Below are positions 7,600-17,409 of a stretch of DNA of 64,000 nucleotides, one piece after another. Source of the stretch: Sphingopyxis sp. RIFCSPHIGHO2_12_FULL_65_19 (GTDB lineage Bacteria > Pseudomonadota > Alphaproteobacteria > Sphingomonadales > Sphingomonadaceae); the NCBI RefSeq assembly GCF_001830555.1, contig NZ_MIAM01000063.1:1-64000 (forward strand), in the 5' to 3' direction. Below the pieces are notes generated by a model. The model was given only the letters and a program-made list of their open reading frames with translations. It was not told the DNA's origin and ran no database searches. Position numbers and translations under genes: made by a program. Numbering within the stretch: the first letter of the stretch is position 1; the number at the start of each line of letters is the position of its first letter.

Positions 7600-7760
7600 G
7601 CAAGATAGAGGCAAAATCTCGCGATTTTGTAAGTGTTTGTCTGCACATCGTTTTTTGAAGGCTTTTGCGAGACTCGCCCTTTGAGTGCGAGACAGGGTTA
7701 CCAGGAGTGGCGGTTTTCTGGGCTTTTCCGATCCCAATCGCGAGACTCCTTGCGCTCTGG
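7600..7760. other. Candidate oriT: hairpin plus GCGAGAC repeats
   Basis: This AT-richer stretch lies between a terminator and the relaxase gene, where oriT is normally found. It has a perfect hairpin caaaatc-tcgc-gattttg at 7612-7629 and three direct GCGAGAC copies at 7667-7673, 7687-7693 and 7740-7746. I could not identify a nic-site consensus with confidence, so the call rests on location and structure. Confidence 0.5.
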
Positions 7761-7818
7761 CGAGGACGCGCCATTCTTATCGGCGGGGAGCGTCATTCCG
7801 GCATGGAAGGACGCCGCT

Positions 7819-9783
7819 ATGCGCGATGATGAGTTCGAACCGCAGCTGGGCCGGATGCGCGGCCGGGGCAAGGAGCAGCGCTACCTGAGCCGCGTCGTGA
7901 AAGCGGCAAAGCGGGCCGGCATGAAAACGGGCAGGCGCGGCCGTTTCGACGGCAGCCGGATCGGGCGCGGCGCGAGTGTTGCGCGGGTGCTCAGATCGCG
8001 CGACCGATTGGGCGCGTTCCGGTCGCGCCGCGTGATCGTCAAGATACGGCCTGTCGGCCTTGGCGGGAAAGGCATGGGCGGTGCGAAGGCGCACCTTCGC
8101 TATATTCAGCGCGACGGCGTGACCCGTGAGGGCGAGGCTGGTGCGCTCTACTCGCCCGACAGCGACGTCGCCGATGGCAAGGCGTTCCTCGAACGGTGTG
8201 ACGGCGACCGCCGCCAGTTCCGGTTCATCGTGTCGGCCGAGGACGCCGACCAGTATCCCGACTTGAAGCCGTTCGTGCGCCGGCTGATGACGCAGATGGA
8301 GCAGGATCTTGGGACAAAGCTCGATTGGGTGGCGGTCGACCATTTCAATACCGGCCATCCGCACACGCATATCGTGGTGCGCGGCGTAAACGATCGGGGT
8401 GAGAATCTGCTGATCGCGCGCGAGTATATCTCGCACGGGAGCCGGCAGCGGGCGATCGAGATCGTCAACCTCGACCTGGGGCCGCGCACCGACCTTGAAA
8501 TCGAAGAGCGGCTTCGCAGCGATACGGGTGCCGAGCGGCTGACCGCGATCGACAGACGGCTGATCCGCGACATGGATACCGCGCGGCTGGTCAGCGCGAG
8601 CGATGGCGATCCCTTCCAGCAATCGCTTCGCGTCGGTCGCCTGCAGAAACTCGGGCGCATGGGACTCGCCTCGCATGTCGGCAACGGCACCTGGCGGCTT
8701 GAGCCCGACCTTGCGAACACACTGCGCCAGATCGGCGAGCGCGGCGACATCATCCGCACCATGCAGCGCGAGCTGACCGCGCGGAAGCTCGATCGTGCTG
8801 CGGTCGATCGCGTCATCTACGACCCGGTCGCGAAGGAGGCGACGCCGATCATCGGCCGCGTCGTGATGCGCGGGCTCGCCGACGAACATGAAGACCGTCA
8901 TTATCTGCTGGTCGACGGCATCGACGGGCGCACCCATTATGCCGAGATCGGCAAGGGCGAGCTGGTCGACACGATCCCCGAAAATGCCATCGTCCGGATC
9001 GCGCCACGCGAGGGCGGCATTCGCGCCGTCGATCGGACGATCGACGAGATCGCGGCGGCGAACGGCGGGCGCTATTCGATCGACGCCCATCTGAAGCACG
9101 ATCCGACCGCCAGCGAACGCTTCGCCGAAACGCATGTCCGGCGGCTTGAAGCGATGCGAAAAATCTCGGGCGTCGTCGAGCGCGAGCCCGACGGAAGCTG
9201 GATCATCGCGCCGGACCATCTCGCCAGGGTCGAGAGGTTCGAAGCCATGCAGTTCCGCGACCACCCCGTTGCCATTGAAACCCTGTCGGCGATCCCGCTC
9301 GACAAATTACCGGGAACCGATGCCGCGACCTGGCTCGATCGCGAGCTGGTCGCCGAAGCGCCGGTGCCAGTGCGCGATGCTGGGTTCGGGCACGAGGTTC
9401 GTTCAGCGCAGGCGATGCGACGGCAATGGCTGATCACCGAACAGCTTGCAGACGAACAGGATGGGCAGACGGTCTATCGGCGAGGGATGCTCGCCGCGCT
9501 CCAGCGGCGAGAATTGCTGCGTGTCGCCCGCCAGCTCTCCGACAAGTTAGGCGTTCCGTTCGCCGAGGCCAGAGAGGGGGAGGCTGTTCAAGGCAGGCTC
9601 GTGCGCGCAGTCGAGATGACGAGTGGTCGCCATGCGCTCATCGAACGGTCGCGCGATTTCACGCTGGTGCCGTGGCGCTCTGTTCTCGATCGCCATGTCG
9701 GTAAATCGGTCTCGGGCATCATGCGCGACGGCGGGATCAACTGGACACTCGGGCGGCAGCGCAGCGGGCCGAGCGTCTCCTGA
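7819..9783 (+). CDS. traI: Conjugative relaxase (MOBP/VirD2-TraI-like, DUF3363)
   Basis: The relaxase nicks oriT, stays covalently bound to the 5' end and leads the strand into the secretion channel. From ATG 7819 it is 654 aa. The relaxase fold is at the N-terminus: a conserved Tyr in AKAHLRYIQRDG (Y95, candidate nucleophile) and the metal-binding histidine cluster in VAVDHFNTGHPHTHIVVRG (H175, H180, H182, H184). The remainder matches the DUF3363 region (LVDGIDGRTHYAEIG, GGRYSIDAHL). The track start at 7633 would read through the oriT-like repeats, so I prefer 7819 with ggaagg upstream. It is followed by an RHH gene and by the cargo. Confidence 0.88.
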   Translation: MRDDEFEPQLGRMRGRGKEQRYLSRVVKAAKRAGMKTGRRGRFDGSRIGRGASVARVLRSRDRLGAFRSRRVIVKIRPVGLGGKGMGGAKAHLRYIQRDGVTREGEAGALYSPDSDVADGKAFLERCDGDRRQFRFIVSAEDADQYPDLKPFVRRLMTQMEQDLGTKLDWVAVDHFNTGHPHTHIVVRGVNDRGENLLIAREYISHGSRQRAIEIVNLDLGPRTDLEIEERLRSDTGAERLTAIDRRLIRDMDTARLVSASDGDPFQQSLRVGRLQKLGRMGLASHVGNGTWRLEPDLANTLRQIGERGDIIRTMQRELTARKLDRAAVDRVIYDPVAKEATPIIGRVVMRGLADEHEDRHYLLVDGIDGRTHYAEIGKGELVDTIPENAIVRIAPREGGIRAVDRTIDEIAAANGGRYSIDAHLKHDPTASERFAETHVRRLEAMRKISGVVEREPDGSWIIAPDHLARVERFEAMQFRDHPVAIETLSAIPLDKLPGTDAATWLDRELVAEAPVPVRDAGFGHEVRSAQAMRRQWLITEQLADEQDGQTVYRRGMLAALQRRELLRVARQLSDKLGVPFAEAREGEAVQGRLVRAVEMTSGRHALIERSRDFTLVPWRSVLDRHVGKSVSGIMRDGGINWTLGRQRSGPSVS

Positions 9784-9804: not shown

Positions 9805-9843
9805 ATTTTCATGAAATTATGTTTTCATGGATTCATGAAAAAT
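9805..9843. promoter_or_regulatory. TTCATGAA-type palindromic operator region
   Basis: TTTCATGAAA-like palindromes occur at 9805-9817 (attttcatgaaat) and 9831-9843 (attcatgaaaaat), with a third ttttcatgg between. The second overlaps ATG 9835. The arrangement fits autoregulation by the small RHH protein encoded here. Confidence 0.5.
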
Positions 9844-10035
9844 ATCGCAGCGCAAACCGATGTCGGCGACGAGCATCTTCAGGTGCAGATTCCTGCCGTT
9901 ACGAAACGCGATCTCGGTCAACGGTCGCTCGATTCCCGCGAGCCGATCCGGATGATCGTACTGCGGGCACTTGAAGCCTATGGCGTGAGCGTCCCCGCAG
10001 ACGCGATATCGGATCGCCGGAAGGGCAGGCGATGA
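9835..10035 (+). CDS. Small ribbon-helix-helix-like protein
   Basis: A 66-residue protein, MKNIAAQTDVGDEHLQVQIPAVTKRDLGQRSLDSREPIRMIVLRALEAYGV. One beta strand (LQVQIP) and two helices around a REPIR turn match the ribbon-helix-helix/CopG pattern, as in antitoxins and relaxosome accessory proteins. I chose the internal ATG 9835 over 9811 because the extra eight residues lie inside a repeated palindromic region. Its stop overlaps the next ATG (ATGA), linking it to the MazG-like gene. It could be a relaxosome component of traI or the regulator of the downstream cargo. Confidence 0.65.
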   Translation: MKNIAAQTDVGDEHLQVQIPAVTKRDLGQRSLDSREPIRMIVLRALEAYGVSVPADAISDRRKGRR

Positions 10036-11210
10036 GCGAGGATTTCGAAGCTCTCACTGTTGCGGATTATGCGAAGCAGGCCGCGCGGACTGATCAACGC
10101 AGCGGTGGCCGCGCACTGGGCTTCTCGATGCTTGGCCTTTTCGGCGAAGTCGGCAGCTTGCTCAGTGAGGCCAAGAAAAAGCAGCGCGACGATGCCTCCT
10201 ACCTGGGTTACGCTCACGCCGTCGCGGAAGAGCTTGGTGACGTCCTTTGGTATCTGGCGGCGATCGCACGGCGCAGCCGCATGGCGCTCAGCGACATCGC
10301 TGCCGCCGCGGCGACAAACGGCGGACAATGGCAGACGGGCGGCAACGAAACGCTCAGTTTCCATGCGCTGCAGCCGCAGCACATTCCGCTTGCCAAGGCA
10401 CCGATGCCGCAGTTCGAGCATAGCCTGCTCGCGCTGGCAGGCGACGTTGGGCTGCTCATCAACGATTTCCAGGCGGGCGGTCTTGCGAAGGACCGCGAAG
10501 CACTCGCGGGCCGGCTGGTCGCGGTCATGCGCCGGTTGATCCAGGCGGCAAACGAATCCGGTGTTACCATCGAGGCTGCCGCCGTGAAGAATCTTCACAA
10601 GATCTTCGATCGCTGGCCGCGCGAGCGCATCTATCCGGCGCCGACCGATGCGGCGCTCGACCCAGAAGAGCAATTGCCGCGGCGGATGGCGATCGACGTC
10701 TATGAACGCACCGTTCGCGGGCAGACATTCGTGTATCAACGCTCAAGCGGTGTGTATGTCGGCGACCGGCTCACCGACAACGCGCTCGAACCCGACGACT
10801 ATCGTTTCCACGATGTCTTTCACTACGCTTATGTCGCGGTGCTTGGCTGGTCGCCAGTGCTGCGTGCGCTGCTCCGTCTCAAGCGCAAGAGCGATCCGAA
10901 ACTCGACGACGCCGAAGACGGTGCTCGGGCGATTCTCATCGAAGAGGGCATAACTTCCTGGATTTTCGGACAAGCGCAGCAACTCCGGTACTTTGAAAAC
11001 GTGAAGCGCGGTGGCCTTCCGCTGGACATGCTGAAGCATGTCCGCCAGTTCGTCGCCGGCTACGAATCAGAACGCTGTCCGCTGTGGCTTTGGGAGGAAG
11101 CGATCCTCCAGGGCTATACGGCTTTCCGCTTCCTTCAGGAGCATCGGCGCGGCCGCGTCCTGATCGACTTCGCCAATCGCCGCCTGCGTATCAAGGAATT
11201 GCCGTCATGA
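10032..11210 (+). CDS. MazG-like nucleotide pyrophosphohydrolase with extra C-terminal domain
   Basis: A 392-residue protein. Residues about 10-80 carry an all-alpha NTP pyrophosphohydrolase signature: LGLFGEVGSLLSEAKKK with Glu pairs, then AVAEELGDVLWYLAAIA, which supplies the ExxD metal site. MazG-type enzymes hydrolyse (d)NTPs to monophosphates. Residues from about 215 form a second helical domain with a His-rich segment (YRFHDVFHYAYVAVLGW), LIEEGITSWIFGQA and an acidic/aromatic motif (CPLWLWEEAILQGYTAF); I believe this is the MazG C-terminal domain type but cannot verify. Start is coupled to the RHH gene, and its stop overlaps the UDG-like ATG. A nucleotide-pool role is known for the family; defence is inference. 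Confidence 0.75.
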   Translation: MSEDFEALTVADYAKQAARTDQRSGGRALGFSMLGLFGEVGSLLSEAKKKQRDDASYLGYAHAVAEELGDVLWYLAAIARRSRMALSDIAAAAATNGGQWQTGGNETLSFHALQPQHIPLAKAPMPQFEHSLLALAGDVGLLINDFQAGGLAKDREALAGRLVAVMRRLIQAANESGVTIEAAAVKNLHKIFDRWPRERIYPAPTDAALDPEEQLPRRMAIDVYERTVRGQTFVYQRSSGVYVGDRLTDNALEPDDYRFHDVFHYAYVAVLGWSPVLRALLRLKRKSDPKLDDAEDGARAILIEEGITSWIFGQAQQLRYFENVKRGGLPLDMLKHVRQFVAGYESERCPLWLWEEAILQGYTAFRFLQEHRRGRVLIDFANRRLRIKELPS

Positions 11211-11911
11211 CCCCGAAATCCTTTGTGTCCACCCTGGCGGCGACCGAACTTCCCTCAGTGTTCAATCCCTGGCGCGATCGCTGCACGGTCCATGACCGCA
11301 GCGACGCCGCCGCCCGGCGCCGCGACAATCTCGAAATGCTGCTCACCGCGGCGCTTGATCATCGCGTCGAAACGATCTGGATCGCGCGTGATCTCGGCTA
11401 TCGCGGGGGGCGGCGTACGGGCGTACCGCTGACCGACGAAATTCACCTCGGACATGCCGGCACGCTGATGGGCGGCATCGCATTTGAACGTGCGACGCAG
11501 GGACCCGCCGTGGCGGAGCGCACCGCGGCGATCGTCTGGCGTGTGCTAGAGCGGATCGGTCAGCCTGTCATGCTCTGGAACGTTTTCCCGTTCCATCCCC
11601 ATGAAGCGGATGATCCGATGTCGAACCGATGCCACACGCGAAGCGAGCGCGAGGCGACCTGGCCGATATTGCAAGCCCTCGTGTCAATGATCCGGCCCCG
11701 CCAGATCGTCGCGATCGGGCGCGACGCTCACCTGGCGCTGGACGGTCTCGACATTCCGACCACCGCGGTCCGCCATCCGAGCTACGGCGGGCAGCGCGAG
11801 TTCATCGAGGGCATGTTCAGCCTGTACGGTGTCGCGGATGACAACGATGAGCCGCTAGAACTGCCGTTGGGCGCGCCTCACGCCGCAGCACGGAGATGTG
11901 CGCTCGCCTGA
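11207..11911 (+). CDS. Uracil-DNA glycosylase superfamily protein
   Basis: A 234-residue protein resembling the UDG superfamily, which removes uracil or modified bases from DNA. Visible motifs are WIARDLGYRGGRRTGVPLTDE (motif-I-like, following the hydrophobic strand VETIWIA), LWNVFPFHPH (Asn strand), VAIGRDAH and the motif-II-like VRHPSYGGQ. It is the distal gene of the RHH-MazG-UDG unit (ATGA overlap with the MazG gene). Its last 34 bp overlap the 3' end of the convergent thymidylate-synthase-like gene. A role acting on phage DNA containing modified uracil would fit the neighbourhood but is not shown. Confidence 0.72.
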   Translation: MTPKSFVSTLAATELPSVFNPWRDRCTVHDRSDAAARRRDNLEMLLTAALDHRVETIWIARDLGYRGGRRTGVPLTDEIHLGHAGTLMGGIAFERATQGPAVAERTAAIVWRVLERIGQPVMLWNVFPFHPHEADDPMSNRCHTRSEREATWPILQALVSMIRPRQIVAIGRDAHLALDGLDIPTTAVRHPSYGGQREFIEGMFSLYGVADDNDEPLELPLGAPHAAARRCALA

Positions 11912-12657
11912 TCGCAGCGTTCAAAGAGTTGCTTAAGATCGCCGCGGTTCCAGTTGGCGGTGTCGACCGTGGCGTTGGTCGAGACGATCGTGAGCGGACC
12001 CAGCGCGACCCCGCCTTCCTTGGCGATGAATTCGAGCAGACGGCCGAGGCCGATCAGATTGCCGAGCAGTTTTTCGATATAGTAGTGATTGCGGTAGAGC
12101 GCGGTCATGCCGAGGCGACGATCGTCGCCCTTGCCGATCAGCTTGAGACTGGCAAAGCTCAGGCACTGACCGCCGTAGGGCGAGTCATTCACGTCGCGGG
12201 CGGGGTCGAAGATCAGCAGTTCGAATTTGTTGAGCGCTCGGACGTTCGGGTTGCGCAGGCGCTCGACGATGCCCCAGATTTGATTGATTGGCTGGCCGTC
12301 GGCGCGGGGCAATTCCATCATCCGTTCGAAATAATAGCCCGACCAAGCGCCCGACCTCCGGACCTTCGGCAGCACGTTGTCGCGAAACCGGTCGAAGAAT
12401 TGCGGCGCGCCGTAGCGCCTGTACAGCGCTGCCGGAAAAATCGTGTTGGCGACCGTCTCGATGGGCTTCTTGCCATGGCCCGAAAGGAAGGCATCGACTT
12501 CCGCCACGACGGGATCGGCGAGTGTTGCGCGCGCAGTCGGCTCGGCCACGGAGATGACGACATTCTGCGCCTGGTGTCCGGTGGCGAGGTCGACGAGCCG
12601 GACCGCCTCGCGCCAGCCAGCAACGCAGTCAGGCTGCGGCGGTATGGGAAGATACAT
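11878..12657 (-). CDS. Diverged thymidylate synthase-like protein
   Basis: A 259-residue protein, the normal length for ThyA. Alignment by eye against E. coli ThyA from memory pairs INQIWGIVERLRNPNVRALNKFELLIF with the DQI...L region, the Cys of GGQCLSFASLKL (C165) with the catalytic Cys, and R189 and N200 of YRNHYYIEKLLGN with the conserved Arg and Asn at the same 11-residue spacing. The His-x-Tyr pair of the dUMP site is replaced by STNATVD, and Asp of the RSxD motif is lost, so substrate or activity has probably changed (a hydroxymethylase-like, binding-only or effector role is possible). Start ATG 12657 overlaps the upstream protease gene by 29 bp. It is the last gene of the five-gene operon. 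Confidence 0.72.
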   Translation of the reverse strand: MYLPIPPQPDCVAGWREAVRLVDLATGHQAQNVVISVAEPTARATLADPVVAEVDAFLSGHGKKPIETVANTIFPAALYRRYGAPQFFDRFRDNVLPKVRRSGAWSGYYFERMMELPRADGQPINQIWGIVERLRNPNVRALNKFELLIFDPARDVNDSPYGGQCLSFASLKLIGKGDDRRLGMTALYRNHYYIEKLLGNLIGLGRLLEFIAKEGGVALGPLTIVSTNATVDTANWNRGDLKQLFERCDQASAHLRAAA

Positions 12658-13309
12658 CGACTTCCTCCGTCAAATTTGCCGTGGCGAAAAGGCGCGGCGC
12701 TAGAAAGCGCTCAGTAAGCCAGGCGTGGCCTTCCAAGCCCCAACCTGGTCCCCAGCTGTTGCGGATGAGAATGGCCGGGGTGCCGTCCACGGTTCCATGC
12801 CCGACCGCGACGACCGCGTGCCGTTGCGCTGGCTCGGGGAGTTCGTCGTTCGCCGGATCGACGACGCCATCACCGCGCGGCTGGAAGAAAGACCGTGACA
12901 GCATCGTCAGCATGAGCACCGGCGTGTCACGATCCAGCGCGGCAAGGATGGATGACAGGTCGGTTCCATCCCTCTGTCCGTTGCGGCCATAGAGCGGGCC
13001 AACGGTCGCCGGCGGCGTCCACAGTCGATGATCGGCTGGAACCGCTGCCAGATACGGCCAGCCTTTCTCGTCGGGTTGGCCATCGAGCCGTAGCGCGTCC
13101 AGCATTGTGGATAGCAGTGCGCCGCTCGTCGGCGGTCTGCCCGCCCGTTTCTGCGCGGCATAAAAGGCGAATTCACACGACAGCGGTGCCCAGCCGTCGC
13201 GAAGCCCGGCGTGGGTGTCGCTCGCGGCGAATGCGAGGCATGTCGGCCGCGCGCCTTGATCGCGCGCAGGCCCGAACAGCGGCCGAAGGTCACGGACGAT
13301 ATCGATCAT
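12629..13309 (-). CDS. Papain-like C1 cysteine protease
   Basis: A 226-residue protease with all papain-family landmarks: oxyanion Gln18 in ARDQGARPTC, catalytic Cys24 in PTCLAFAASDTH, His164 in QRHAVVAVGHG, and Asn184 in IRNSWGPGWGLEGHAWL. There is no propeptide of the usual eukaryotic length and no clear signal peptide, so it is probably cytoplasmic and must be kept in check by something else. The gene immediately upstream encodes a protein with a chagasin-like domain, the natural inhibitor fold of papain-type enzymes. It is spaced 6 bp from that gene and overlaps the TS-like gene downstream. Confidence 0.88.
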   Translation of the reverse strand: MIDIVRDLRPLFGPARDQGARPTCLAFAASDTHAGLRDGWAPLSCEFAFYAAQKRAGRPPTSGALLSTMLDALRLDGQPDEKGWPYLAAVPADHRLWTPPATVGPLYGRNGQRDGTDLSSILAALDRDTPVLMLTMLSRSFFQPRGDGVVDPANDELPEPAQRHAVVAVGHGTVDGTPAILIRNSWGPGWGLEGHAWLTERFLAPRLFATANLTEEVDVSSHTAAA

Positions 13310-13315
13310 GGGGCG

Positions 13316-14326
13316 TCAGGCGGCCTCGAGCAGGTGCCGCCGTTCGGCGCGCGACAGGCCCGTCTGTTCCGGGCCGGTGAGGTCGAAATCGAGCGTCAGG
13401 CTGGTGAGGGCCGGCGCAGGCTGCCACGGCCGCCGCTCGTCGAGCGACATGCGGCCGCGCCGCGGCGCATCGGGCGCCGCGGTGACACGGCGGACAACGG
13501 GACCACCGATGCCATCGCCGTCGATTGCCTCACGCTCGTCTCGAACGACGGCGAAGCCGCTGGCGATCAGTTGGTCGAGATCCCAGAGATACCCACCGCC
13601 GCTATGTTCTTCGAGCTGCAGCACGAAAAGATCATTGCGACTGCCATCGATCCGCGAGCCGGCATCGCGCTCGGTCAGCAGCCAGACGTCGCCGCGATAG
13701 TTGTCGGGCCGATAGTCCTTGAGGAGATCGACCTTCAGGCTGCGCGGCTGCGTCCGGAGCAGGTCGGTCATCACCGATGGCGAAATCAGATTGTAGCGAA
13801 CCAGGGTGCGGCACGTCGCCTCATAGCTGGCGCCGATCCGCAGCGAGAGCTGATAGACGACATTGGGGCGCCGGAAATGATCGATCTGCCATCCTTGTCG
13901 CGCGCTGTGCGCGAGCACCAGCCATTTCGGCATCATGAAGGCGATCGCAAAGGCGTCGGCTTCGGTTTCCTCGAAGTTGTTTCCCGGTTCGGGCGACATC
14001 GGCATCCGGCGCAGGATGCTCTCATCGTCGAGGCTCGGCTCGTGTCGCATCGAAAAATGCCCGAGTTCGTGCGCGGCCGTGAAGCGCTGGATGCTCATCG
14101 GTCGTTCCGTCGTGACGAGAACGCCAGGAGCAGGTGCGCTGAGATAGGCGCCGAGCAGGCCTTTCAGAGGACGAAGCAGCAAGGGTAGACCCACGGCATG
14201 GATCGCGCCGAAGACATCGACGCTGCCGCCTTGGGTCTCGATCAGTGCGCGCGTATCGAGTTCGCGATGCAGGCGGCCCGCTGCCATCGTACCAGCGCGA
14301 ACCGCGCTCGCATAATCCGACGCCAT
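13316..14326 (-). CDS. ImmA/IrrE metallopeptidase fused to a chagasin-like (I42) inhibitor domain
   Basis: A 336-residue fusion. The N-terminal half is an ImmA/IrrE-type zinc peptidase: RFTAAHELGHFSMRH (HELGH at 86-90) and the third-ligand segment FEETEADAFAIAFMMP. Residues about 220-320 show the three loops of chagasin-type cysteine-protease inhibitors: SGGGYLW (242-248, cf. NPTTGYxW), GDGIGG (270-275, cf. GxGG) and ERRPWQP (297-303, cf. RPW), then a terminal strand LTSLTLDFDL. Three bp downstream of the XRE gene, its likely substrate; 6 bp upstream of the papain-like protease, its likely inhibition target. The family calls are pattern-based; the functional pairing is inference. Confidence 0.82.
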   Translation of the reverse strand: MASDYASAVRAGTMAAGRLHRELDTRALIETQGGSVDVFGAIHAVGLPLLLRPLKGLLGAYLSAPAPGVLVTTERPMSIQRFTAAHELGHFSMRHEPSLDDESILRRMPMSPEPGNNFEETEADAFAIAFMMPKWLVLAHSARQGWQIDHFRRPNVVYQLSLRIGASYEATCRTLVRYNLISPSVMTDLLRTQPRSLKVDLLKDYRPDNYRGDVWLLTERDAGSRIDGSRNDLFVLQLEEHSGGGYLWDLDQLIASGFAVVRDEREAIDGDGIGGPVVRRVTAAPDAPRRGRMSLDERRPWQPAPALTSLTLDFDLTGPEQTGLSRAERRHLLEAA

Positions 14327-14329
14327 CGA

Positions 14330-14704
14330 TCAGCTCCGTTCGCCGCCAGACCGCGAGCGGAGATATTCGGCAAACCGGCTCAGCTCGGCCCGGTCCTCAG
14401 TCGACAAGGCCGCAACGCGTCGCGCCAGATGGGCGACATCGGCGGGAAGGCTCGCGGAGGCCTCGTCTTCGCCGGTAAAATAGGCCACCGACTGGCGGTA
14501 AAGACGGGCAAGCCGCGTCAGTTCGATCGCTTCAACGCGGCGCTGGCCATTCTCGATATCGGTAAGCGCGGTCCGGGGAATCTTGAGATAGGCAGCAACT
14601 TCTTCCTGCTTGAGGCCGAGATATTTCCGTGCTTCGCGCAGACGGTCGCCCAAGCGCCGCCGCTCCTGCTCGTCGCCTTCCTGGCGGAGTGCGAGATTGG
14701 TCAT
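14330..14704 (-). CDS. XRE-family transcriptional regulator
   Basis: A 124-residue repressor-type protein. The helix-turn-helix is at residues about 18-73: LGDRLREARKYLGLKQEEVAAYLKIPRTALTDIENGQRRVEAIELTRLARLY. The short C-terminal tail is helical. XRE plus ImmA/IrrE pairs usually form a switch in which the peptidase cleaves or antagonises the repressor after a stress signal. Its start overlaps the ACP-like stop (ATGA at 14701-14704) and its stop is 3 bp before the ImmA gene. A palindrome in the promoter region (15062-15082) is a plausible binding site. Confidence 0.88.
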   Translation of the reverse strand: MTNLALRQEGDEQERRRLGDRLREARKYLGLKQEEVAAYLKIPRTALTDIENGQRRVEAIELTRLARLYRQSVAYFTGEDEASASLPADVAHLARRVAALSTEDRAELSRFAEYLRSRSGGERS

Positions 14705-15039
14705 GGCTTCGACCCTTTCTTCTTAACCCAGACGCGTTCGATCTTAGGGAGGAGGTCGTCAATCGCCTTCTCGATCGAATTGTAGCCGCCGGTGCGGACG
14801 ATGCTGTCGCGAAGCTCGATGTCGAGGACCTGCTCCACCGCGCAAAGCGTGTCGACCACGGACAAGGAGTCGAGTGGCACGGGCGCCTGGATGATCTTCG
14901 GGTTTTCCGGAGGCAGGGCAATTCCGCGCACCTGTGCCTCAGCCCTGGCCACTTGCAGCAGTTCGTCGACCAACGCCCTAATGGCGTCGGCTTTGGGAAA
15001 CGCGGTTGCCGCGGGCTGCGGAGGAGCGATTGTCGCCAT
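14701..15039 (-). CDS. Acyl carrier protein-like small protein
   Basis: A 112-residue protein from ATG 15039 (gaggc upstream); GTG at 15060 is the longer alternative. The C-terminal half looks like an acyl carrier protein: PVPLDSLSVVDTLCAVEQVLDIEL, with the phosphopantetheine-site triplet DSL (Ser58), then YNSIEKAIDDLL for helix IV. The first 50 residues form an extra helical, Ala-rich extension. It is the first gene of the XRE-ImmA-protease-TS operon. No acyltransferase, ligase or PPTase is nearby, so whether Ser58 is loaded is unknown. A Phyre/HMM check would settle the fold. Confidence 0.6.
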   Translation of the reverse strand: MATIAPPQPAATAFPKADAIRALVDELLQVARAEAQVRGIALPPENPKIIQAPVPLDSLSVVDTLCAVEQVLDIELRDSIVRTGGYNSIEKAIDDLLPKIERVWVKKKGSKP

Positions 15040-15381
15040 GCATGCCTCGCACGATTTCACTACATTAAATGCGATATAATGTCTGATAATCCGACACGCA
15101 AGCCCGAATTTGCAGCTCGGATTTTTGCAGGGTGTAGCGGGTCATCGGCGGTGCGGTGTGGTGGTCAGTGCCACCTCGAGGGACAACGACAGGGCAGAAT
15201 CATCAACTCGGGTCATAGCTCGATCAAAAGAACAGAGCTGGAATATTGAGTCAGTCGCCGACGAGTGATCTCCTTCGGTCACCCACCAGCCCCCAGCGGC
15301 TCCGTTCATTTCGGGCGGCCCATAGCCGAGTCTTGAAGCCGCGCCCCGACCGCATCCGGCGGTATGGGCGGGAGCTTCAAC
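15040..15381. other. Divergent intergenic region between cargo operon and traG
   Basis: This region separates the minus-strand cargo operon from traG. Its AT-rich left part carries the palindrome at 15062-15082 and a TATAAT at 15075-15080. The part from about 15140 to 15360 has no ORF I can support. The 756-aa minus ORF reading from traG is an antisense shadow. Confidence 0.5.
15062..15082. promoter_or_regulatory. Putative XRE operator / promoter of the cargo operon
   Basis: acatta (15062-15067) and taatgt (15077-15082) are inverted repeats around a 9-bp spacer, in an AT-rich stretch 23 bp upstream of ATG 15039. Repressors of XRE/ImmA pairs commonly bind such sites to autoregulate. Confidence 0.45.
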
Positions 15382-17409
15382 GTGACCCCGACCAAATTGC
15401 TCATCGGCCAGATCCTTGTCGTGTTCGCAATCGTGATCGCGGGCCTCTGGGCGGCGACCCAATGGGCGGCGGCGATGCTCGCCTACCAGCCCGAACTTGG
15501 TCCGGCCTGGTTCATGGCTGGAAGCACGCCGGTCTATCGTCCCTGGGCGCTCTTCCCCTGGTGGTATCACTACGATGCCTATGCGCCGCATGTTTTCGAC
15601 AAGGCCGGCGCGCTCGCCGGCGCGAGCGGTTTCATCGGCTGCGGCGCGGCGATCGCAGGCTCGCTCTGGCGCGCGCGGCAGTCGCGTCACGTCACCACCT
15701 ATGGTTCGGCGCGCTGGGCCAGGCCGAACGAGATCGAGCGGGCCGGCCTTTACGGTGATGCCGGCGTATTCCTGGGCCGCTCGCGCGGCCGCTATCTCCG
15801 GCATGACGGCCCCGAACATATCATGGCGTTCGCGCCAACCCGTTCGGGCAAGGGCGTCGGGCTGGTCATACCGACACTGCTTGGCTGGACCGGCAGCGCC
15901 GTGGTTCACGACATCAAGGGCGAGAACTGGCAGCTCACCGCCGGCTGGCGCGCGCGCTTCTCCCACGTCCTGCTGTTCAATCCGACCGATCCCGCTTCCG
16001 CCAAATACAACCCGCTGCTGGAGGTCCGGCGCGGCGAGCATGAGGTCCGCGACGTCCAGAACATCGCCGACATCCTGGTCGATCCCGAAGGCGCGCTCGA
16101 ACGGCGCAACCACTGGGAGAAAACCTCCCATTCGCTCCTGGTCGGCGCGATCCTCCACGTCCTTTATGCGGAGGAAGAAAAGACGCTCGCACGGGTAGCC
16201 ACATTCCTGTCGGACCCGCAGCGGCCGTTCACCGCCACGCTCCGGCGGATGATGACCACCAATCACCTCGGCACGAAGGATGCGCCGCAGATCCATCCCG
16301 TCGTCGCCTCGGCGGCGCGCGAGGTGCTCAACAAGAGCGAGAACGAGCGCAGCGGCGTCCTCTCCACCGCAATGTCGTTTCTCGGGCTCTATCGCGACCC
16401 GACCGTCGCCGCGGTGACATCGCGCTGCGACTGGCGGATCGCCGATCTCGTCGAGGCCGGCCATCCGGTCTCGCTCTACCTTGTCATCCCGCCATCGGAC
16501 ATCAGCCGCACCAAGCCGCTGGTGCGGTTGGTGCTCAACCAGATCGGCCGCCGCCTCACCGAAAAGCTCGATGCCGATCCCGCCAGGGCGGGCAAGCACA
16601 AGCTCCTGATGATGCTCGACGAGTTCCCGGCATTGGGGCGGCTCGACTTCTTCGAGACCAGTCTTGCCTTTCTCGCGGGCTATGGAGTGCGCGCCTTCCT
16701 GATCGCGCAGTCCTTGAACCAGATCGAGAAGGCTTATGGCGAGCACAACTCGATCCTCGACAACTGCCATGTCCGCGTCGCGTTTGCGACCAACGACGAG
16801 CGCACGGCGCGGCGGATTTCGGACGCGCTCGGCATCGCCACCGAACAGCGCGCGATGCGCAACTATGCCGGCCACCGGCTCGCGCCCTGGCTGGCGCACG
16901 TCATGGTCAGCCGGCAGGAGACCGCCCGGCCACTCCTGACCACCGGCGAGGTGATGCAGCTCCCGCCCAAGGATGAGCTTGTCCTTGTCTCCGGCATGGC
17001 CCCGATCCGCGCGAGGAAGCTGCGCTATTACGAGGACCGCAATTTCCGCGAGCGGATCGCACCGCCGCCGCAGCCCGCGCCCGGAGACTATCCCGACCGG
17101 CCGCAGGCACGCCCCAACGACTGGAGCGGACTGGTCCGCGCGCCCGATACCCGGCTCGGCAAGCCCGATGACGATGCGAAGGCGGATGAGGACGGCGGCT
17201 TGCAACAGCAGCGCCACCCCGGCCTCGGCGAAGAACCCGCCAAAAAACCCGAGCCGCCAAAGCAGCTCGACCTGCTCGGCCTGGACAGCGACGACACCGA
17301 CACGATCGCCGACAAGCACGCGATGGACCGCGCCGGCGCCACCGGCACGCTGATCCGCGCTCACGCGATCAATCAGGGTCGCAGCGCCGACATGCTGCCG
17401 GACTTCTGA
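15382..17409 (+). CDS. traG: Type IV coupling protein (VirD4/TraG)
   Basis: The coupling ATPase that recruits the relaxase-DNA complex to the channel. 675 aa from GTG 15382, chosen because ggag lies 7 nt upstream and homologues begin near TPTKLLIGQ; ATG 15364 gives six more residues. Two N-terminal membrane segments (ILVVFAIVIAGLWAATQW and ALAGASGFIGCGAAIAGSLW) precede the Walker A motif MAFAPTRSGKGVGLVIPTLL (about residues 150-165) and Walker B KLLMMLDEFPALGRLDFF. The C-terminal 100 residues are charged and Pro/Asp-rich. It begins the traG-trb transfer operon; the next gene starts 2 bp later. Confidence 0.93.
   Translation: MTPTKLLIGQILVVFAIVIAGLWAATQWAAAMLAYQPELGPAWFMAGSTPVYRPWALFPWWYHYDAYAPHVFDKAGALAGASGFIGCGAAIAGSLWRARQSRHVTTYGSARWARPNEIERAGLYGDAGVFLGRSRGRYLRHDGPEHIMAFAPTRSGKGVGLVIPTLLGWTGSAVVHDIKGENWQLTAGWRARFSHVLLFNPTDPASAKYNPLLEVRRGEHEVRDVQNIADILVDPEGALERRNHWEKTSHSLLVGAILHVLYAEEEKTLARVATFLSDPQRPFTATLRRMMTTNHLGTKDAPQIHPVVASAAREVLNKSENERSGVLSTAMSFLGLYRDPTVAAVTSRCDWRIADLVEAGHPVSLYLVIPPSDISRTKPLVRLVLNQIGRRLTEKLDADPARAGKHKLLMMLDEFPALGRLDFFETSLAFLAGYGVRAFLIAQSLNQIEKAYGEHNSILDNCHVRVAFATNDERTARRISDALGIATEQRAMRNYAGHRLAPWLAHVMVSRQETARPLLTTGEVMQLPPKDELVLVSGMAPIRARKLRYYEDRNFRERIAPPPQPAPGDYPDRPQARPNDWSGLVRAPDTRLGKPDDDAKADEDGGLQQQRHPGLGEEPAKKPEPPKQLDLLGLDSDDTDTIADKHAMDRAGATGTLIRAHAINQGRSADMLPDF

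Follow-up and report, generated by a model that had tools for sequence, protein, structure and literature searches.

In the described switches closest to the present locus, the protease CapP cuts CapH and the protease PprI cuts DdrO. Both CapP and PprI were found to be activated by single-stranded DNA (ssDNA), and the GAF-like domain of PprI is required (PMC13373217, PMC10904395). Chagasins, the I42 family of inhibitors, are known as stand-alone proteins with three inhibitory loops, among them T. cruzi chagasin, the amoebiasins, P. aeruginosa ICP and P. syringae Cip1. In 2016 the role of bacterial chagasins was described as not yet elucidated; those of Pseudomonas carry signal peptides, extracellular targets were suggested for them, and most Pseudomonas genomes with a chagasin were thought to be without a C1A target (PMC5014320). 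For thymidylate synthase (TS) and 5-hmdU kinase domains, a part in anti-phage systems was newly validated in E. coli; a defence function is predicted for MazG and MazG_C (PMC13092281).

Elements of all these systems were found together in the window, by which is meant the whole 64,000-nucleotide stretch of Sphingopyxis DNA analysed here. As in CapH and CapP, an XRE repressor is followed near the operon head by an M78/IrrE-type metalloprotease with the HExxH...E motif, the best PADLOC profile matches of the two being capH (2e-12) and capP (2e-12). Unlike CapH and CapP, the protease bears a chagasin domain, a papain gene comes next, a gene for an acyl-carrier protein (ACP) stands first, and the output genes encode nucleotide enzymes, not CBASS. 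PprI/IrrE of the Deinococcus PprI-DdrO system belongs to the same metalloprotease family (3dte, 8slm) and has a similar N-terminal layout; however, it ends in the GAF-like domain that serves ssDNA activation, whereas in ImmA a chagasin occupies that place, after the metalloprotease and HTH region. This chagasin shares with the known ones the sequence family and the order of the three loops, yet it forms part of a cytosolic-type protease and its neighbour is putatively cognate. With the nucleotide and base-hypermodification conflict systems, including those validated through DefensePredictor (PMC13092281), the cassette holds in common a TS-like protein, MazG_C and, in sister cassettes, HMUDK; unlike those nucleotide conflict systems, it has an ACP, an XRE-ImmA switch and an I42-papain pair. 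The encoding of an inhibitor just before an enzyme, on mobile elements, recalls type II toxin-antitoxin modules, but here the inhibitor is one domain of a regulator that is itself catalytic, in a larger operon and the toxin is putative only.

Gene content, promoter and carriage of the cassette

The locus is a mobile seven-gene cassette, composed of an operon in the order ACP-XRE-ImmA/I42-C1-TS-like, in which C1 is the papain-like protease, and a convergent operon MazG-UDG, in which UDG is a uracil-DNA-glycosylase-family protein. Cassettes of this form are called type A and a sister form, described below, type B. The features, including a small gene that precedes MazG, are as follows.

9835-10035, plus strand: small gene before MazG, probable ATG at 9835; an ORF of similar size lies in the same place in relatives L061 and L064
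10032-11210, plus strand: MazG + MazG_C nucleotide pyrophosphohydrolase (MazG_C 2.7e-78, MazG 4e-5)
11207-11911, plus strand: UDG-family protein, probable ATG at 11207 (PF03167, 5e-6), present in most type A cassettes
11878-12657, minus strand: TS-like protein (TIGR03283, 4e-10; Cys165 and YR-x-H ... GN invariant)
12629-13309, minus strand: papain-like (C1A) cysteine protease without propeptide (PF00112; C1 matches in the PDB)
13316-14326, minus strand: ImmA/IrrE (M78) metalloprotease, CapP-like (1.9e-12 with capP), with a C-terminal chagasin domain
14330-14704, minus strand: XRE/HTH repressor, CapH-like (HTH_31, 3e-11; capH profile, 2e-12)
14701-15039, minus strand: ACP-like gene with a DSL phosphopantetheine motif (D64-S65 invariant in 11 homologs; ACPs in the PDB at 5e-5 by profile)
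15080-15096: operator-like palindrome TGTCTGATAATCCGACA between the probable -35 and -10 of the operon promoter, upstream of the ACP gene

The probable ATG of the ACP-like gene is at 15039, and its ORF starts at an upstream GTG at 15060. In four relatives (L056, L058, L065 and L118) a holo-ACP synthase or phosphopantetheinyl transferase (PPTase) gene adjoins the ACP gene, and the proximity of a PPTase in Haloarcula and of a holo-ACP synthase in the rhizobial copies suggests that the cassette ACP is loaded. The TS-like protein retains both the catalytic cysteine and the YR-x-H...GN core, with CLS and YRNH in place of the canonical PCH and RSxD motifs, and to judge from these residues it may act on a nucleotide or cofactor other than that of thymidylate synthase. 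No TS-like protein was found in annotated phages. In two R. ruizarguesonis plasmids (L065, L119) the TS-like gene appears split or frameshifted while the ImmA and C1 frames are open. A TS-like domain was also seen in mostly ~500-700 aa frames of G402, G474, G395 and their relatives (L125-L142), with no other cassette gene in the stretch examined.

The palindrome TGTCKGANNNTCMGACA occurs only once in the 3.87-Mb genome, even when one mismatch is allowed, and that occurrence is at the operon promoter; in divergent cassettes the same palindrome recurs at the same position. The unique operator and the similarity to capH and capP suggest, by analogy, an autoregulated switch in which ImmA would cut the XRE repressor. 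PADLOC gave no match for the non-regulatory proteins of the cassette (C1, TS-like, ACP, UDG and MazG), and no known immune operon was recognized.

Plasmids and conjugative elements carry the cassette, and relaxase and T4SS genes lie next to it. In the window it is flanked by relaxase-like (7633-9783) and VirD4/TraG-like (15364-17409) genes, an arrangement shared with related plasmids. The gene set is conserved in Bradyrhizobium, Sinorhizobium, Rhizobium, Sulfitobacter, Acuticoccus, Rhizorhabdus and Burkholderia, and partly in Haloarcula. On a plasmid of Haloarcula marina (L056, 4333-7416) the order ACP-XRE-ImmA/I42-C1-TS-like is conserved, which points to transfer between domains of life; the Haloarcula copy adds genes for a PPTase and a member of the 5-hmdU-kinase family. 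The contig IMGVR 3300032373_001152 (L066/L103), classified as viral, carries a type A operon, and two other such contigs, L067 and L069, carry type B.

This content leaves room for an alternative in which the cassette is not a defence system and provides base modification or nucleotide metabolism to the mobile element, for instance by shielding the element's own DNA from restriction. The TS-like, ACP, MazG and UDG genes, the 5-hmdU kinase, dCTP deaminase and PPTase genes carried by relatives, and the location beside relaxase and T4SS genes would all agree with such a role, but it is considered rather unlikely, as control of the CapH/CapP type, together with the Shedu, caspase-like or restriction genes found near several cassette loci, fits defence better.

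The chagasin domain and its papain-like neighbour

The ImmA ORF (336 aa, minus strand, 14326-13316) matched two Pfam families, Peptidase_M78 at residues 79-175 (E=3.9e-9) and Inhibitor_I42 (PF09394) at residues 230-307 (3.5e-5, full protein). H86-E87-x-x-H90 and E120, forming HExxH...E, are invariant in ImmA homologs. Against the Pfam I42 cut-off of 27.2 bits, the I42 match fell just below, both in the full protein and in the domain alone (27.1), and came out just above, at 27.5, in the search of the window's own genome. The assignment itself is no longer in doubt, because PF09394 was matched by every one of the 22 C-terminal domains homologous to it, whose sources range from sphingomonads to a haloarchaeon, with a best value of 5.3e-12, and no other family was matched by more than one of them. 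A profile of the domain found only chagasins as significant matches in the PDB (amoebiasin-2, 1.7e-12; P. aeruginosa ICP, 1e-5; T. cruzi chagasin, 1e-3). With the full-length ImmA profile the matches fell into separate segments, a CapP (7t5t)/IrrE (3dte) part at about residues 18-151 and a chagasin part at about residues 213-312. The C-terminal domain is thus, by profile comparison across the family, a genuine chagasin (I42), as a sequence-only reading of the locus had proposed in calling ImmA fused to a chagasin-like domain. AlphaFold modelling of full-length ImmA from limited alignments gave the I42 part a confidence of about 30, which is too low for judging an Ig-like beta fold. Public annotation already names some homologs "protease inhibitor I42 family protein". 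The domain and its loops lie at the following positions.

13382-13714, minus strand: chagasin (I42) domain, ImmA residues ~205-315
13583-13603, minus strand: L4-equivalent loop SGGGYLW (G-Y-x-W invariant or nearly so in the 22 domains)
13502-13519, minus strand: L2-equivalent loop GDGIGG (first G of the final GG invariant)
13424-13435, minus strand: L6-equivalent loop RRPW (R-P-W nearly invariant, at least 90%, in the 22 domains)

The chagasin loops NPTTG, GxGG and RPW have conserved counterparts in GYxW, G and RPW, which follow in the same order among the invariant or nearly invariant columns of the 22 domains, so that the three loops recognized earlier in the window's protein held for the family. 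In the window's L4 the NPTT part is replaced by HSGG and both threonines of NPTTG are absent; the form NRTTGFRW survives in L245. Mutation of these threonines weakens known chagasins (PMC5014320), and their absence therefore calls for caution as to how strongly the window's I42 domain would inhibit. The RPW loop was lost in one relative, L065, yet the C1 gene is kept there. Purifying selection acts on the I42 domain as it does on the M78 domain (omega 0.07-0.12).

The C1 ORF (226 aa, minus strand, 13309-12629) begins 6 bp after ImmA and overlaps the TS-like gene by 29 bp. It matched Peptidase_C1 in Pfam at 7.4e-10, and its family profile matched cathepsins and other C1A enzymes in the PDB at up to 2e-21. 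Q18, C24, H164 and N184 are invariant wherever covered, in up to 73 sequences, and the earlier description of a papain-like enzyme with complete Q-C-H-N landmarks was thereby confirmed. Homology to the PDB enzymes is aligned from about residue 10 of the mature enzyme onward, and the ORF itself opens some 10 residues ahead of the part homologous to mature enzymes. Beginning where mature cathepsins begin, the protein has no propeptide, again as read before, and this is consistent with control by an inhibitor instead. Since both ORFs share a frame, a read-through I42-C1 fusion could be modelled with AlphaFold from limited alignments; its pLDDT of 63 and pTM of 0.56 are too low for the fold of I42 or for docking. 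In a Foldseek search with this low-confidence model, the 50 best matches were all papain-fold chains.

The papain might also be a processing or regulatory protease that cuts, for example, XRE, ImmA, ACP or the TS-like protein, the I42 domain then being mainly a docking or timing device and not an antidote. This is held to be rather unlikely: the operon offers many possible substrates, the C1 and TS-like genes overlap, and I42 stands in place of the PprI regulatory domain, but no particular substrate is indicated by the sequences.

Pairing of inhibitor and protease across genomes

The sole I42 domain and the sole C1 gene of the 3.87-Mb host genome are this adjacent pair, and in 18 further cassette-bearing genomes I42 and C1 are likewise unique to the cassette; one of these genomes (G012) carries both the cassette and the pair twice, and in another (G010) the I42 domain lies below the Pfam threshold and was recovered by the family profile. 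Within the host family, C1 occurs in 14 of 151 genomes and I42 in 9 of 151. When cassettes with an ImmA gene adjoining a TS-like gene were compared, 74 had both I42 and C1, 13 had neither and none had only one (about 29 and about 12 distinct cassettes, respectively, at 95% M78 identity); the initial count was 73 with both and 14 with neither. L109 was rejected as a locus lacking I42 and C1, the stretch being incomplete and a longer one, L245, having both. L055, in which the ImmA, C1 and MazG frames are broken, possibly by assembly errors, was excluded from all inferences. The earlier claim that enzyme and inhibitor genes adjoin each other, the inhibitor being attached to a stress-type metalloprotease, is strengthened by the genome-wide uniqueness and the all-or-none co-occurrence.

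In the M78 tree all 20 type A rows fall into one clade (96/92), and the TS tree is less clear. Because the type A M78 proteins are monophyletic, a single joint gain, and not a series of independent ones, mainly accounts for the co-occurrence. I42 and C1 were probably acquired together on one occasion and have since been retained through deep divergence, up to the haloarchaea. In two genomes of the same host family, C1 was seen in longer frames (G752, 2561637-2563384; G754, 1085254-1087036) with I42 lying downstream at a distance of about 0.9 kb. A TS-like cassette gene was not found there, and the two represent a C1-I42 neighbourhood separate from the cassette.

Type B, found in Streptomyces, cyanobacteria and other proteobacteria, keeps the XRE-ImmA switch and is devoid of C1 and I42; its annotated copies carry the 5-hmdU kinase family PF18723. 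A type B ImmA with a loop-less chagasin domain was rejected after profile comparison gave it a probability of 0.1%. As type B has the switch in the absence of any protease of this kind, the switch is not there to control the papain.

The sequence-only reading had seen in the pair a possible two-gene toxin-antitoxin switch. The adjacent enzyme and inhibitor stood, but the larger unit had been missed, with its conserved operon, the convergent MazG-UDG genes and an operator of its own; since the pair forms the middle of a conserved operon, such a switch would describe no more than a portion of the system. Under that model the papain would be a killing protease and ImmA-I42 its antitoxin, whose loss or inactivation frees the papain. 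The inhibitor gene does precede the enzyme gene with tight spacing, the pairing is exclusive, and the carriage on plasmids and conjugative elements would suit such a module, so that a toxin-antitoxin label is possible for the pair; nonetheless, with the pair always lying within a larger cassette and type B retaining its switch without the protease, the model itself was judged quite unlikely.

Another proposal, that I42 guards against foreign papain proteases of phages or rival elements and has nothing to do with its neighbour, appears highly improbable in view of the perfect co-occurrence of I42 with an adjacent C1 and its absence from cassettes without C1, even though papain-like genes are common in viral contigs and foreign proteases are possible targets of bacterial chagasins, Cip1 among them (PMC5014320). 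Among 80 viral C1 loci there was no match to the I42 family profile, a result of little weight given the narrow profile.

A proposed protease-inhibitor switch

The preferred explanation, with a probability of about 0.6, is that a cognate protease-inhibitor pair is placed inside a CapH/CapP-type switch that controls a nucleotide or base-modification cassette, probably for defence. At rest, the XRE protein would sit on the unique operator and repress the operon. ImmA and then the papain would be translated in succession, the chagasin domain occluding the papain active site, so that a propeptide-less cytosolic papain could be stored safely on the metalloprotease. If CapP and PprI are a guide, the trigger is probably ssDNA or some other sign that DNA is damaged or that a phage or foreign replication is present. 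Upon triggering, ImmA would cleave the XRE repressor and the operon would be induced, and the papain would be released or would shift the state of ImmA. Of this scheme, the sequences establish what the domains are, that the active sites are intact, that the pairing is exclusive, and the operon with its operator, whereas binding, inhibition, XRE cleavage, the trigger, the papain substrate and the role in defence are inferred.

Because the chagasin sits where PprI has its ssDNA-regulating GAF-like domain, papain occupancy may itself gate ImmA, and the comparison suggests for the papain partner the role of an input to ImmA, of its output, or of both. From this a two-protease switch was tentatively proposed, at less than even odds, in which papain binding and release gate the CapP-like metalloprotease and the reverse, and a single trigger both derepresses the cassette and unleashes a papain effector.

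As the output, the TS-like protein, ACP, MazG and UDG, with the 5-hmdU kinase in sister cassettes, would produce a modified nucleotide or else remove or excise it, most likely for defence borne by the mobile element. A mobile, inducible nucleotide or base-modification defence cassette is favoured because TS and 5-hmdU kinase domains are validated in anti-phage systems, MazG and MazG_C are predicted to serve defence, and Shedu, caspase-like or restriction genes lie near several copies.

In the literature, covered incompletely for nucleotide-centric systems, no paper on an ImmA-I42 fusion or an I42-C1 pair was found, and the only paper containing both "chagasin" and "imma" was unrelated. New here are the genome-wide uniqueness of I42 and C1, their all-or-none co-occurrence and the mobile operon with a unique operator. 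The fusion of a protease inhibitor to the sensor protease adds a new layer to the CapH/CapP controllers of immune operons, within a widespread mobile cassette of alpha- and betaproteobacteria and haloarchaea, with a sister form elsewhere, that also holds an ACP and a TS-like enzyme. As the inhibitor adjoins the only possible C1A partner in the genome, the role of a bacterial chagasin becomes directly testable here, and if the two-protease switch is true, it would provide a chagasin of bacteria and archaea whose endogenous partner is known.
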